Shown here: piece by piece, positions 5,301-10,952 of the stretch
Layout: each line of letters begins with the position of its first letter
Numbering within the stretch: position 1 is the stretch's first letter
Assembly (NCBI GenBank): GCA_012034075.1
Contig: JAAURD010000030.1
Span: 1 to 32,599 of the forward strand
Reading direction: 5' to 3'
DNA length: 32,599 bases
Source: Chloroflexaceae bacterium
GTDB taxonomy: Bacteria; Chloroflexota; Chloroflexia; Chloroflexales; Chloroflexaceae
Made by a program: the position numbers and the translations under genes
Notes under the pieces: generated by a model
What the model was told of the DNA's origin: nothing
Database searches by the model: none
Seen by the model: the letters and a program-made list of their open reading frames with translations, nothing else

Positions 5301-8186
5301 ATGAGCACGACTTCTGCATCTCCCTCAGAACCACCGATGGAACTGCCAGCGGCTCACTTCCCCCCGGTGAAACGGCTCAGCCTGGGTATCAAAGCCAATG
5401 CTATTATTGTGGCTGGGCTGGGTATCTTGCTGGTCATACTGCTCTTCCTTATCAACAACCGCATCGAGCAGTTGATTATCCAGGTTGGTCAGCGCGAGAT
5501 AGATGAAGTTATCACTGCTACCAGCATCAGGTTTGCCGAAATCAGCCAGGCCTTGCTTGAAGAGACCCGTTTATTAACCACCATGCCTGGGATGATCAAG
5601 GACTCTCGTTTTCAGCCCAACGCCTTTTGGCAATCGAACTGCCTCGCAGACCTCTATCCCCCTATCGCTCTGTTTGATCGGTCAGGCCAATGGGTTTTCG
5701 ATCTCGATCATACTTCACCATCGGGACTTACCCCAGATGCTGAAGCTGCATTAATCGCCGAGGTGTTGCAAGGACAGGAACGCCTATTAGCAATCCAAAA
5801 TGAACAAACTGCTCAACTCTGCCTGGTAGCAGCAGCACCCATTCGTGATACTGCGACTGATAAAGTTCTTGGCGGGATCCTCAATGCGAGAGCCATCGAT
5901 ACCGATATGCTCCAGTCAATCAATCAGGCATTCCCTCATGTTGGCATGTATCTGGTGCATGATGATGATGTCCTTGCCTTTGCGGTATCCGAAAGAGAAA
6001 GCAAATCACTTCCTGCTGCTCTACCACCGAATATTGGGTATGATCCCCCAGTTTCGGCAACCGCGGAGCATGCTTATACTGATCATGACCATGCGGATAA
6101 CAGCATATCAGATACGTTCAATGCCCATGACCCGGCACATATGGATCACGAAGCCATCTCGATCCTGCTCGATCCGGAAGTGCTGGCACAGACCAGTGCT
6201 GGTCAGCAGTGGATAACGGATCGTGCTATCACTCTTCATGGTGTTCCCCATATGTATGCTCAGATACCCCTCATCATCAACGGGAAGACCGAAGCTAGTC
6301 TGGGTCTCTTTGTGGGGTTAGCAGATATTGTGGCGTTTCAGCAACAGATGGTGATTAACCTGACCATGCTCTTTATCATCCTGGGCCTGATTGTTATGGT
6401 GATGATGTCTGGTGCAATTCACTATAGCGTGGTTCGTCCACTCCACCAGTTAAAAGCTGCCGTTTCCAGGATGAGCGAGGGCGATTACGATCAGCGGGTT
6501 ACAATCAACAGCGGTGATGAAATAGGCCAGCTGGGACATACAGTTAATACGATGGCAAGGCGTCTGGGGTATATGTATATAACTCTTGAACAACAGGTAG
6601 TAGAGCGCACCATTCAGTTGAAGCAAGCATTGGCTGAAGCGAGAGAAGCACGGGCCGCGGCTGAAGCGGCCAACAACCTCAAATCGCGTTTTATTGCCAA
6701 CATGTCTCATGAACTGCGTACCCCGCTCAACTCGATTATCAATTTTACGCGCATTGTAAGTAGCGGCTTACGTGGTCCCGTCACGTCAGAGCAGGTGGAC
6801 TATCTCAATCGCGTCCATGCCAGTGGGGAACACCTTCTTGGTCTGATCAACGATATTCTTGACATTGCCAAAATTGAGGCTGGACGGATGGAACTGCACA
6901 AAGAAACCATCGTCTATGGAGAGATGGTCCGCAGTACTCTGTCTACGGCCATGGGCCTGACCCGAGACAAGCCGATTGAACTGTTCCATGAGATTGCGCC
7001 CCATATACCCCATATTGAGGCCGACCATACACGCGTCCGCCAGATTTTGCTGAATCTGCTCTCCAACGCTGCTAAATTTACCGATGAAGGCAGCATTACG
7101 GTGCGTGTGTGGCAAGAGGATCAATCGATTATCACCAGTGTGAGCGATACCGGTATTGGCATTCCCGCCGATCAGCTTGAAACGATTTTTGAAGAGTTTC
7201 GGCAGGCCGATGAAGGGAGTGATCGCAGCTATCAAGGCACTGGTCTCGGCCTGTCGATCTGTCAGCGGTTAGTAACGATGCATGGTGGTCGGCTCTGGGT
7301 CGAGAGCGAAGTTGGTGTTGGTTCAACATTTACCTTCAGTCTCCCAATAAACGTTGTTGCAACGGTTACAACTGGTTCGGAAGTATCCTCTTTGACTATC
7401 ATCCCAGAACAGACAACTGCTCATTTGATCATCGTGATTGAGGATGATCCCTCAGCAATCGAAATTGTCGCCAACTACCTGCAACCTGATGGGTATACCA
7501 TCTATGGTGTGACAGACAGCCGCAAAGCGCTCGAAGTCATCCGCAAGGCACAGCCCATCGCCATCATTCTCGATATTCTCATGCCCCATCGTGATGGGTG
7601 GGAATTGCTGGTCGAACTCAAAGAGGCCCATGATTTGCGACACATTCCGGTGATTTGCTACACCATTGTCGATAAGCCTGCGCTTGGTCTGTCGTTGGGC
7701 GCCAGTGCCTATCTGATCAAGCCGATCCAGAAGGAAATGTTGCGCAAGACCGTGCAGAGTCTGGTTGGGCATCAAGGACATATTCTGGTCATTGATGATG
7801 ATCCTGCTGTGCGTGATATTGTACCCCGTTACCTGGGCAAAAATGGCTATTCTGTAGTCACTGCTGCCGACGGTAAGGAGGGTATGGACAAGATTGCAAC
7901 CAGCAAGCCGGATTTGGTTATTCTCGACCTGATGATGCCCGTAATGGACGGTTTTGCTGTGCTGAATGCACTTGATGCGACCCCCGAATATCGCACTATT
8001 CCGGTGCTAGTGTTGACCGCCCGTGACCTCACCAGTCAGGAACGACAGATGCTCACCGAGCGAGTCCAGGGCTTGCTGGCAAAATCAACCTATACGATTG
8101 AACAAATGTTCGATAACGTAAGAACCATTCTTCGTCATTCTCGGATAAACCGAGCAGAAAAAACCGAAGAGTTGGATGCAGATTAG
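5301..8186 (+). CDS. Hybrid sensor histidine kinase with two C-terminal receiver domains
   Basis: A 961-residue membrane kinase. Order: cytoplasmic N-terminus; membrane segment about 33-52; extracytoplasmic sensor about 53-350, Cache-like (strands such as IALFDRSGQWVFDL and LCLVAAAPI); membrane segment about 351-374; HAMP 375-430; coiled linker; HisKA with the phosphorylated His at H470 in MSHELRTPL; HATPase with N588 in LLSNAAKF, DTGIGIP and GTGLGLSI; then two receiver domains with phosphate-accepting D758 (ILDILMP, K807) and D876 (ILDLMMP, K928). The sensor contains a His-rich stretch at residues 257-283 that could bind metal. It follows the single-domain regulator on the same strand, suggesting a multistep phosphorelay. 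The signal is unknown. Confidence 0.93.
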   Translation: MSTTSASPSEPPMELPAAHFPPVKRLSLGIKANAIIVAGLGILLVILLFLINNRIEQLIIQVGQREIDEVITATSIRFAEISQALLEETRLLTTMPGMIKDSRFQPNAFWQSNCLADLYPPIALFDRSGQWVFDLDHTSPSGLTPDAEAALIAEVLQGQERLLAIQNEQTAQLCLVAAAPIRDTATDKVLGGILNARAIDTDMLQSINQAFPHVGMYLVHDDDVLAFAVSERESKSLPAALPPNIGYDPPVSATAEHAYTDHDHADNSISDTFNAHDPAHMDHEAISILLDPEVLAQTSAGQQWITDRAITLHGVPHMYAQIPLIINGKTEASLGLFVGLADIVAFQQQMVINLTMLFIILGLIVMVMMSGAIHYSVVRPLHQLKAAVSRMSEGDYDQRVTINSGDEIGQLGHTVNTMARRLGYMYITLEQQVVERTIQLKQALAEAREARAAAEAANNLKSRFIANMSHELRTPLNSIINFTRIVSSGLRGPVTSEQVDYLNRVHASGEHLLGLINDILDIAKIEAGRMELHKETIVYGEMVRSTLSTAMGLTRDKPIELFHEIAPHIPHIEADHTRVRQILLNLLSNAAKFTDEGSITVRVWQEDQSIITSVSDTGIGIPADQLETIFEEFRQADEGSDRSYQGTGLGLSICQRLVTMHGGRLWVESEVGVGSTFTFSLPINVVATVTTGSEVSSLTIIPEQTTAHLIIVIEDDPSAIEIVANYLQPDGYTIYGVTDSRKALEVIRKAQPIAIILDILMPHRDGWELLVELKEAHDLRHIPVICYTIVDKPALGLSLGASAYLIKPIQKEMLRKTVQSLVGHQGHILVIDDDPAVRDIVPRYLGKNGYSVVTAADGKEGMDKIATSKPDLVILDLMMPVMDGFAVLNALDATPEYRTIPVLVLTARDLTSQERQMLTERVQGLLAKSTYTIEQMFDNVRTILRHSRINRAEKTEELDAD

Positions 8187-8236: not shown

Positions 8237-8698
8237 TTATGCTAAAGAAGACTCTCGCAAGGTCGCACAGGCTTCGCGCAACACACCCGTTACAATATCG
8301 GGCGGTGCTCCCCAGCCTTCAATCGATGAATCGACCAGCAACGGGTAACGGGTACTGATACCTCCTACATCTGTTGTTTCAACACCAATAACCACCATAC
8401 GTATCTGCGTTTCTCGAATGGCATACGAACACATCCAACATGGTTCTGCCGTCGTATAGAGCGTACACCCACTCAGGTTGAGCGTTCCCAACGTCTGACA
8501 TGCCCCACGAAGAGCAATGATCTCGGCATGGCCTGTCACATCCAGAGTCTGGGGTAAGGTCTCCTGTCCAGTTGCAACGATCCGTTCGGCAGCAACAACC
8601 AGTGCCCCAACCCCAAGATTCTCTGCCTGTCGCGCTGCTTCAGCCAGACGCAAACACTGTTCCATATACCATGTATGTTGCGCCTCATTCATGCCCAC
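8237..8698 (-). CDS. Nucleoside/base deaminase of the TadA-guanine deaminase class
   Basis: A 153-residue zinc-dependent deaminase of the cytidine deaminase-like superfamily (COG0590). The zinc and catalytic residues are complete: H57 and E59 in TGHAE, C87 and C90 in PCWMC. True tRNA adenosine deaminases usually have AHAE; TGHAE and the C-terminal GISTRYPLL region fit better with base deaminases such as guanine or cytosine deaminase, so I do not call tadA. The ATG at 8698 overlaps the end of the FMN-protein gene by 14 bp, implying co-translation; an ATG two codons later is possible. It converges on the histidine kinase gene, with about 50 bp between. Confidence 0.82.
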   Translation of the reverse strand: MGMNEAQHTWYMEQCLRLAEAARQAENLGVGALVVAAERIVATGQETLPQTLDVTGHAEIIALRGACQTLGTLNLSGCTLYTTAEPCWMCSYAIRETQIRMVVIGVETTDVGGISTRYPLLVDSSIEGWGAPPDIVTGVLREACATLRESSLA

Positions 8699-9613
8699 GT
8701 TCCGACACCTCCGGATGAAAGGGCGAATAGCTCATAAACTCCCAGCACCAGGGCAGTCGTTGCGCGGTTTCGATCACCTGACTGATGCTATACCGGACCA
8801 GTCGTTCAGCCCCCGGATACGGTTGGACCAACGCCTCATCCCAGATAATCTGTGCCTGCCCGGTCATCTGCAGCGTACTGCCAGTCGCAAAATCCAAAAA
8901 CAGGAGCCCGCTCTGAGGATGCACCGCAATATTGCCCAGGGTATTGAACATCATATTGCCGGTATAGTCCGGCCAAAGCAGTGCGCTGTCATCCAGCATC
9001 TGGATAAAACCAGGATGGCCTCCACGATGAGACGCATCAGCACCGCCGGCCGGATGCGCACTGGCAATAAAAAAGGTATCGGCCTGGGTGATCCATTGTT
9101 GCTGGCTCTGGTTCAGACCCGTAGCCACATGCACAATCGATGGGTTGAGCTCTGTTCCAGGCGTTCCCTCGATCTGACGTGCCTGAATATACTTGGGGCA
9201 GTTGGCATACACCTGTTGTGCATGCACCAGCAGCCGGCCATCAGTAGCGCGTTCAACCCGACCATTCAAGCGCATACGCCGACGTGACGCAAACTCAATT
9301 GCCAGCAGGCCAATCATCGGGTTGGTCAAGATATTAGCCGCAAGTGGGTCACCTGGCAGCGGCTTTGCATCAATCAGTGCTGTCCACTCATCCAAACAGT
9401 GATACATCCTGGGTCTCCGGTCAATATCGAAGCCCATACTTGATGTTCCGTATCGATGGAAGCGACGATCACCATCTGCTGCCGTTGCAAGAAATCTTGT
9501 GCTGCCGTTGGCAGAAACGTTTTGATGCTTTGCCCAATACGCTGGGCCTGAACTTGCACGCCAGCTTGCGCCTGCACCATGTGTTCTCCGGGGTGAAATG
9601 GATCATGATCCAT
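8685..9613 (-). CDS. FMN-binding split-barrel (PNPOx-like) protein, frameshifted
   Basis: Two overlapping frames together make one protein of about 309 residues in the pyridoxamine 5'-phosphate oxidase-like flavin-binding superfamily (COG3576 type). The first part (9613 down to about 9395) carries FHPGEHMVQAQAG and VWASILTGDPG, the usual N-terminus. The second (about 9394 down to 8685) carries LPGDPLAANI, DTFFIASAHP and PDYTGNMMFNTLGNI. Family alignment expects the reading ITV then LDEWTALIDA. One missing T in the run at 9394-9396 (AAA on the plus strand) accounts exactly for the frame change. The start at 9613 has AGAAGGG upstream. Either the gene is dead or the sequence has a one-base error. 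The substrate is unknown; the deaminase gene follows in the same operon. Confidence 0.78.
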
Positions 9614-9746: not shown

Positions 9747-10142
9747 CTAAATCTCCAGCCGAATCCCATCGGGATCGGTAAAAAAGATGCCGCCAGACGT
9801 CTTCCCCTCACGATGCGCCACAATACCATCGTAGATCAGCGCTACCTGTTGTTCACGCAGCCGTTGCTCAAACGCTATCACATCTTCGATACGCGCCACC
9901 TCGAAAGAAAGATGGTGCAGACCAGGGCTATGACTATCAAAATGACCCTCACTCTGCTCCCACAGCGTCAAGACCAGGCGTTCCCCATCGCTCAAAAACA
10001 CAAAACGATGACCCTCAACATACGATTCGTGTGCGACCGTAAAGCCAAACACATCCTGATAAAACTGCCGTGAACGTTCAACATCAGTGACATTCAGGCC
10101 AATATGCCCAGTCTGGACCTGGATCGGCAATGAACCAGACAT
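9747..10142 (-). CDS. VOC superfamily (glyoxalase/dioxygenase-fold) protein
   Basis: A 131-residue vicinal oxygen chelate protein, with metal-dependent enzymes and resistance proteins as relatives. The two beta-alpha-beta-beta-beta units are clear. The first begins GHIGLNVTDVERSRQFY with candidate ligand H13. The second begins PGLHHLSFEV (H76/H77) and ends FTDPDGIRLEI with E130. These are the positions of the usual His/Glu metal ligands. Substrate cannot be assigned. It is divergent from the CGNR regulator at 10308, and its promoter is interleaved with that gene's promoter, so it is the likely target of that regulator. The FMN-protein gene follows 133 bp downstream on the same strand. Confidence 0.88.
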   Translation of the reverse strand: MSGSLPIQVQTGHIGLNVTDVERSRQFYQDVFGFTVAHESYVEGHRFVFLSDGERLVLTLWEQSEGHFDSHSPGLHHLSFEVARIEDVIAFEQRLREQQVALIYDGIVAHREGKTSGGIFFTDPDGIRLEI

Positions 10143-10217
10143 TTGTGCTTTCCGTTCAGGTTCAAAATAAGACTTGTCTCTCCAAAATAACTACCTATTG
10201 TTGTTTTAGACGGTGTT

Positions 10218-10298
10218 ATTGTATCATGCCCATCTGGAGCTGTCAAGAGCCAGATTCTCCAATCGTAACTTGTCAAGAGCTGATTCCATGGTTATAAT
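10218..10298. promoter_or_regulatory. Divergent VOC/CGNR promoters sharing a 10-bp direct repeat
   Basis: Minus strand: TTGACA (10246-10241), 17-nt spacer, TACAAT (10223-10218), driving the VOC gene. Plus strand: TTGTCA (10270-10275), 17-nt spacer, TATAAT (10293-10298), driving the CGNR gene. The sequence TGTCAAGAGC occurs at 10241-10250 and again at 10271-10280, exactly 30 bp apart (about three helical turns). One copy contains the VOC -35 box, the other overlaps the CGNR -35 box. This arrangement would let one regulator occlude both promoters. Confidence 0.72.
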
Positions 10299-10307
10299 AG
10301 AACGACT

Positions 10308-10952
10308 ATGAATAGTTACTCGGCAGAATCGAATACGAATACAGCTGATTTCATGTTTCTTGGCGGTCACCCATGCCTGGATTTTGTCAACACCGAAATG
10401 ATGGTACAGGAACAACGTACCGATCTCTTGACCAATCCAGAACGACTGCTTGAATGGCTTGAAACAACCAGCCTCGTAACCGCCGAGACCGCGAACTGGG
10501 TTCGTCAAGGGTGGCTTGACGATGGATCCGGTGCATTGGTGCTGGAACAGGCCCGTACCTTACGTCAGATGCTGCGCACCATGTTTGATCAAATCATTGA
10601 TGGCACAACGGTTGATCCTGCCATCATTACCGCGATCAACGCCTACCTTGCGGTGCAAGCACTACAATTGAACCTGGTACAACACGCACATGATTTTGAT
10701 GCAGAGTGGGTTCTCATGCCACGCGAGCCACAGCATATCCTGGCATCCATTGCTGCCATCACCGTCGATTTGCTCACCGCCGGCGAACAACGCCGCATCA
10801 AACGCTGCGAGAATCCGTCCTGCATTCGCTATTTCTATGATACCACCCGCAACCATTCACGTCGCTGGTGTAGCATGGAACAGTGTGGTAATCGCATGAA
10901 AGTAGCAGCGTATTATCGCCGCAAACGCCCACAACAAAAAGGTTCTGACTAA
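10308..10952 (+). CDS. CGNR zinc-finger (ABATE-type) putative transcriptional regulator
   Basis: A 214-residue protein. The N-terminal half (about 15-155) begins FMFLGGHPCLDFVNTE, the hallmark of the ABATE/ginsenoside-type ligand-binding domain. The C-terminal about 45 residues form the CGNR zinc finger: C167, C172, C188 and C193, the last in CGNR, followed by a basic tail. The family is regarded as transcriptional regulators that bind DNA through the finger. The -10 hexamer ends only nine bases before the ATG at 10308, and no ribosome-binding site is visible, so the mRNA is probably leaderless or nearly so. It is divergent from the VOC gene with shared repeat elements, implying autoregulation and control of the neighbour. 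Confidence 0.88.
   Translation: MNSYSAESNTNTADFMFLGGHPCLDFVNTEMMVQEQRTDLLTNPERLLEWLETTSLVTAETANWVRQGWLDDGSGALVLEQARTLRQMLRTMFDQIIDGTTVDPAIITAINAYLAVQALQLNLVQHAHDFDAEWVLMPREPQHILASIAAITVDLLTAGEQRRIKRCENPSCIRYFYDTTRNHSRRWCSMEQCGNRMKVAAYYRRKRPQQKGSD

Follow-up and report, generated by a model that had tools for sequence, protein, structure and literature searches.

Local regulators that control a divergently transcribed neighbour are exemplified by the Tn10 TetR–tetO system, in which two palindromic operators lie between the regulator and its target and the regulator represses its own gene. That divergent promoters can overlap and use one −35 region in common is likewise a general concept. CGNR/ABATE proteins are widespread and are annotated as putative stress regulators. 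The solved ABATE–CGNR member, Jann_2411 (PDB 3h0n), has been described as a dimer whose zinc finger probably binds DNA, and the portion of that description drawn on here names neither a ligand nor a DNA site (PMC2954205). A search of the open-licence literature in PubMed Central returned no DNA target for CGNR/ABATE proteins, and the Jann_2411 structure paper was its only relevant result; subscription journals may differ.

In this work, we analysed a contig of 32,599 nucleotides from a Chloroflexaceae bacterium (the window), which holds a CGNR regulator gene divergent from a gene of the VOC superfamily, with a PPOX-type flavoprotein gene 3′ of the latter (Table 1). As in the Tn10 system, the target and the regulator diverge and operators lie over or beside both promoters. 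Unlike TetR, the protein encoded here consists of an ABATE domain and a treble-clef zinc finger, an unrelated fold; its putative operator arms are widely spaced, at 18–19 bp, and in many CGNR relatives the two promoters use one −35 hexamer within the operator. The concept of a common −35 fits L002, the nearest relative, and further loci (24 of 56 in total), where both strands of TTGTCAA serve as −35 boxes, whereas in the window the shared box is split over two copies 30 bp apart. With Jann_2411 the regulator shares the same two domains, the four zinc cysteines and the fold; beyond what that part of the Jann_2411 paper covers, we propose an operator together with its geometry and the residue likely to set specificity (PMC2954205).

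Table 1. Features of the CGNR–VOC control region and adjoining genes (positions in the window)
Feature	Positions	Strand	Remarks
PPOX-type flavoprotein gene, 3′ of VOC	8685..9607	-	two reading frames, frameshift ~9401-9428
VOC gene (glyoxalase/bleomycin-resistance superfamily, PF00903), divergent target	9747..10142	-	Pfam
Left operator (putative), degenerate, TAACTACCTATTGTTGTTTTAGACGGTGT	10188..10216	.	abuts VOC -10, covers predicted VOC start
VOC promoter -10 TACAAT	10218..10223	-	17-nt spacer from -35
Repeat unit 1, holds TGTCAAGAGC copy 1	10229..10258	.	TAAC arm lost (GAGC); L002 has one unit here
VOC promoter -35 TTGACA	10241..10246	-	leftward
Repeat unit 2, containing copy 2 of TGTCAAGAGC and left arm of right operator	10259..10288	.	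unit alignment
Right operator (putative) TAACTTGTCAAGAGCTGATTCCATGGTTA	10266..10294	+	arms TAACT/GGTTA, 19 bp between; overlaps CGNR -35 and -10
CGNR promoter -35 TTGTCA	10270..10275	+	within right operator
CGNR promoter -10 TATAAT	10293..10298	+	17-nt spacer; overlaps right arm of right operator
CGNR regulator gene, 214 aa	10308..10952	+	ABATE (PF07336) and CGNR zinc finger (PF11706); CGNR at 193-196

An ABATE–CGNR regulator beside a VOC gene

The regulator is a member of the ABATE–CGNR family and does not belong to the TetR family: Pfam assigns to it an N-terminal ABATE domain (PF07336, E = 7.2e-25, whole profile) and a C-terminal CGNR treble-clef zinc finger (PF11706, E = 1e-20), and these alone. 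The zinc-finger cysteines C167, C172, C188 and C193 are invariant across 59 sequences, and a Foldseek comparison of the AlphaFold2 model (pLDDT 90.7) with the PDB gives 3h0n as the sole match at E ≤ 0.001 (E = 5.5e-8, TMq 0.59). The ATG of the CGNR gene lies 9 nt past its −10 box, with similarly short distances in other loci from many relatives, and we infer from this spacing that the mRNA is likely to be leaderless or near-leaderless.

The divergent arrangement is kept in genome G008 (L002), where the CGNR protein is 51% and the VOC protein 73% identical to those of the window, and a search of 400 genomes from the phylum turned up none that is closer. The arrangement is seen again in a Paenibacillus locus (L053) and on a plasmid from Streptomyces (L120), with VOC identities of 53–54%. 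A PPOX-type gene follows VOC in the window, L002 and L120. In the window this gene is probably a co-target and is split over two frames, so that either the gene is broken or the assembly has an indel; the L002 homologue is open.

Divergent promoters and a direct repeat

The 10-mer TGTCAAGAGC is present in two copies with an offset of exactly 30 bp (10241-10250 and 10271-10280), and the preliminary description was right that each copy coincides with the −35 box of one of the two divergent promoters and that both promoters have near-consensus hexamers. Each matches 11 of 12 consensus bases, and the 5.0-Mb genome has 24 instances of the pattern TTGACA-N17-TAYAAT (0 when it is read backwards). That the copies share a helix face holds roughly, as 30 bp correspond to 2.86 turns at 10.5 bp per turn.

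An exact 10-bp repeat is by itself not rare in the window, which has 12 pairs of start positions within 10–60 bp against 1.55 expected. The resemblance extends further. At a lag of 30, 18 of 30 positions of the region match, and no other lag between 10 and 60 gives more than 15; when the two units of about 30 bp are aligned with gaps, 0.15% of 2,000 shuffles score at least as high.

The same description points to the direct repeat itself as the CGNR binding unit, which would mean two copies bound side by side on one helix face, and offered its conservation in related genomes as a test. Both copies do lie at −35 boxes, but only two of the 112 distinct CGNR upstream regions contain the 10-mer, the window (twice) and L007 (once), and at copy 1 no pairing scores above 0 with an operator matrix. 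The conserved object is an inverted repeat instead. We therefore reject the direct repeat as the operator and hold this reading to be extremely improbable. The broader idea of a compact regulator–target module, in which a CGNR protein with its own DNA site controls both genes, is supported in another form, with the site being an inverted repeat beside the direct one.

An inverted repeat upstream of CGNR genes

This inverted repeat, TAACY-N18/19-RGTTA, has TGTCAA as one flank, and its half-site extends to about tRTAACCtgTCAAA. A single-protein scan of genome contigs gave no relative; an alignment query then yielded 80 loci. A total of 121 loci were collected, 9 of them duplicates, and in the resulting 112 distinct loci, which include the six in which the motif was first spotted by eye, TAACY-N17-20-RGTTA was present within 260 bp upstream of the CGNR gene in 81 and absent as an exact pattern from 31. 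Dinucleotide shuffles of this first set gave a mean of 0.4 loci with the motif (maximum 2), and control tiles of the same loci gave 7 of 2012. After the motif had been fixed, it was found in 17 of 24 new Chloroflexota loci (L205, with 22 bp of upstream sequence only, was set aside from this set) and in 33 of 60 more distant loci, of which 3 others had a TTACC form and 24 showed neither the TAACY nor the TTACC form. All sets together, the motif precedes 131 of 196 CGNR genes.

The distance between the arms is narrowly distributed, with peaks at 18 bp (53 loci) and 19 bp (39 loci) where 0.07–0.11 were expected, and no other spacing above 7 loci. Seven loci, against 0.03 expected, have a spacing of 8, one helical turn shorter; such short-spacer operators, TAACC-N8/9-GGTTA, are seen in L004, L017, L099 and L108, which group together in the CGNR tree (from which L040, a truncated protein, was left out), and also in L193 and L196. 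Two exact copies are present in 53 loci, and lie 38–57 bp apart in 52 of them, the exception being L119 at 192 bp. The arms and the distance between them are unchanged in left operators that lack TGTCAA.

The motif was found in 13 named phyla or candidate phyla, as well as in plasmid-borne loci of Actinomycetota (L190, L192) and Deinococcota (L119). In the first set, it was present in, among others, 25 of 29 loci of Pseudomonadota, 12 of 12 of Bacillota, 7 of 8 of Acidobacteriota and 2 of 11 of Gemmatimonadota. A counter-group is formed by a nine-locus Gemmatimonadota clade (SH-aLRT 100) on a long branch, in which no operator was detected (L067, L084, L086, L090, L101, L103, L107, L109 and L113); these CGNR proteins may have another role or another site.

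In the window, scored with a matrix built without it, the right operator is the top match in all 32.6 kb (21.9 bits) and the left operator the second best (14.2; next 13.4). The left operator is degenerate, with GGTGT as its right arm, and its L002 counterpart scores 17.8. Shuffled windows hold 0.295 sites of at least 14.2 on average; when the 165-bp intergenic region is shuffled, such a site arises in 1.1% of cases.

Specificity and candidate targets

Across 158 genomes of the class, the pattern TAACYTGTCAA-N10-14-GGTTA occurs at 13 sites (3 when read backwards), of which 10 lie directly upstream of a CGNR gene; the remaining three are upstream of a DinB-like gene (L140), at a contig edge (L143) and overlapping the start of a LacI-like gene (L135). 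In 20 further genomes, chosen for carrying the TAACYTGTCAA...GGTTA pattern, 20 of 25 sites are at CGNR genes, with 10 matches backwards. The relaxed pattern alone is not specific: it matches at 16 places in the 5.0-Mb genome of the window, and 15 of these are without TGTCAA, which is present at the CGNR site alone. A larger regulon in this genome was rejected on the same grounds. One further sequence of this genome, TAACCCGATTTGACCCTTGAAAAGGTTA (C44 of G000, 7574-7601; L123:1501-1528), lies just downstream of a TTGACA-17-TATAAT promoter that belongs to an aldehyde-dehydrogenase-like gene. It scores 13.7, and this gene is possibly a second target, as a weak lead.

The genes next to the motif are diverse. 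Among 68 divergent ORFs, selected by the author as plausible genes, Pfam identified 23 alpha/beta hydrolases, 5 MFS, 4 VOC, 4 DinB, 3 EamA and 3 AzlC proteins; since these partners differ, the CGNR gene is the common factor. Because the motif recurs upstream of so many CGNR genes beside very different targets, the CGNR protein is its probable reader. In line with this, 18 distant VOC homologues without a CGNR gene have no site in their loci, and two with one have a site. In loci where target and regulator do not diverge, the two operators are still located in front of the target, as in L121 (a hydrolase–CGNR operon) and L088 (a downstream hydrolase-like gene). In L140 (1501-1575), two operators 47 bp apart lie upstream of the DinB-like gene with no CGNR gene adjoining; this genome has a CGNR gene on another contig, so regulation of the DinB gene in trans is possible.

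Covariation of the arms with the CGNR tetrapeptide

Loci with TTACC...GGTAA arms encode CGSR in place of CGNR. When symmetric arms with any base at position 2 were tabulated for 194 loci with a readable zinc-finger motif, the 173 loci with Asn at the third tetrapeptide residue had A at base 2 in 132, T in 2, C in 1 and G in 2 (4–5 each in shuffles), and the 13 loci with Ser had T in 11, A in 1 and G in 1 (0.3–0.5 in shuffles). The single locus with Gly had C. In a tree with the residue masked, the residue changes three times and the arm twice, and both independent pairs agree; the link comes from two or three evolutionary switches, the two pairs being too few for a sign test. Asn or Ser need not be the sole cause of the change in the arm, because neighbouring residues also change (AKA to xKM).

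We lean, by a narrow measure, towards the CGNR tetrapeptide acting as the reading head, with its third residue setting base 2 of the arm: Asn with A (TAACC) and Ser with T (TTACC). Further pairings, of Gly with C (CCACC), of CANR with TACAT-like arms and of CMDR with TATCC-like arms, are leads; those for CANR and CMDR were seen after the fact and would need to be read as leads only. The loci concerned are L268, L271 and L272 (CMDR), L275 and L276 (CANR), and L033 (CGGI), with CCACC arms; L245 (CGSI) has CTACC arms. An apparent loss of the fifth operator base with CGTA and CGNA proteins (L034, L036 and L037) was inseparable from poor sites and was set aside.

These data also bear on two readings in which the inverted repeat is no regulator site of this family: a promoter architecture made up of −35 and −10 boxes that overlap, or a site for some global regulator unrelated to CGNR. 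TGTCAA and GGTTATAAT do overlap promoter boxes in many loci. Yet the left operators lacking TGTCAA share the arms and their spacing, the sites are nearly confined to CGNR loci, and the arm sequence follows the CGNR tetrapeptide, which makes either possibility very unlikely. TAACY-N18/19-RGTTA is probably the long-missing binding site of the CGNR family, as judged from comparative sequence evidence.

A −35 box shared in relatives and probably split in the window

L002 has one TTGTCAA where the window has two. Read rightward, it gives TTGTCA-17-TATACT towards CGNR and, leftward, TTGACA-17-TAGAGT towards VOC. The window equals L002 plus 30 bp, since the outward distances match from copy 1 to VOC and from copy 2 to CGNR; L002 has its two operators 48 bp apart, the window 78 bp. 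Among 56 loci with TGTCAA-type right operators, 24 have a leftward −10 (4 or more of 6 matches, A2 and T6 included) at a distance of exactly 17 bp from TTGACA; other spacings have 0–8 loci. The rightward −10 has its spacing peak at 16–17 bp from the −35 of the right operator. Back-to-back overlapping promoters inside the operator are thus common, and the split in the window is an exception. In L002 and about half of the TGTCAA-type relatives, one TTGTCAA in the right operator serves as the −35 of both promoters.

The direct repeat has the look of a 30-bp tandem duplication whose units have diverged, and it is seen in this window only. We infer the direction of the event: a duplication would have split the −35 once common to both promoters, leaving VOC with a separate −35 outside the operator. 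Conversely, the repeat could be ancestral, with L002 having dropped one unit through slippage; L002 is the only close relative and one event suffices in each direction, but the 78-bp spacing is the odd one, because 52 of the 53 exact operator pairs are 38–57 bp apart and the nearest clade members, L031 and L038, have about 41–42 bp. An ancestral repeat is accordingly improbable, and we favour a duplication in the lineage of the window.

The same geometry is relevant to the sign of regulation. Activators often bind just upstream of a promoter, and the duplication has left the right operator in this position relative to the VOC promoter, 20 bp from its −35, such that CGNR could be an activator or dual regulator that recruits polymerase to VOC from this site. 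In L002 and about half of the relatives with a TGTCAA-type operator, however, the same site overlaps the −35 of the divergent gene, and in the window it overlaps the CGNR promoter; blocking fits both arrangements better. Position is the sole ground on which we would prefer a repressor to an activator, which we consider unlikely, if a shade less so than an ancestral repeat.

Discussion

We consider it highly probable that this region serves as control site for a local, self-repressing CGNR regulator that reads TAACY-N18/19-RGTTA and has a detoxification-type target. The operator, its conservation, its pairing, the common −35 and the 30-bp difference from L002 are all present in the sequence, and the steps that follow are a model built on them. 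The CGNR protein, probably as a dimer, would bind the inverted repeats. Occupancy of the strong right operator would shut off the CGNR promoter, self-repression being expected because a dimer on a wide inverted repeat would cover the −35 to −10 of the regulator's own promoter. At the weaker left operator, repression of the target is expected because this site covers the divergent start. As the right operator in the window is off the VOC −35, control of VOC is predicted to be weaker or dependent on the left site. A small molecule on the ABATE domain would free the DNA and turn on VOC, and probably the PPOX-type gene too. The adjoining genes, which include hydrolases, VOC enzymes, efflux pumps and DinB, suggest the sensing of toxic small molecules.

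For a family that is widespread and known chiefly by a putative stress-related annotation, an operator that can be read from genomes and is tied to one residue would make the binding, the targets and the ligands of CGNR proteins directly testable. Such an operator also allows targets to be found away from the regulator gene, as for the DinB gene in L140. If the pairing of residue and arm is true, it would amount to a simple code of DNA recognition in a family of zinc-finger regulators spanning many phyla, one that could be swapped between modules controlling detoxification-type genes.
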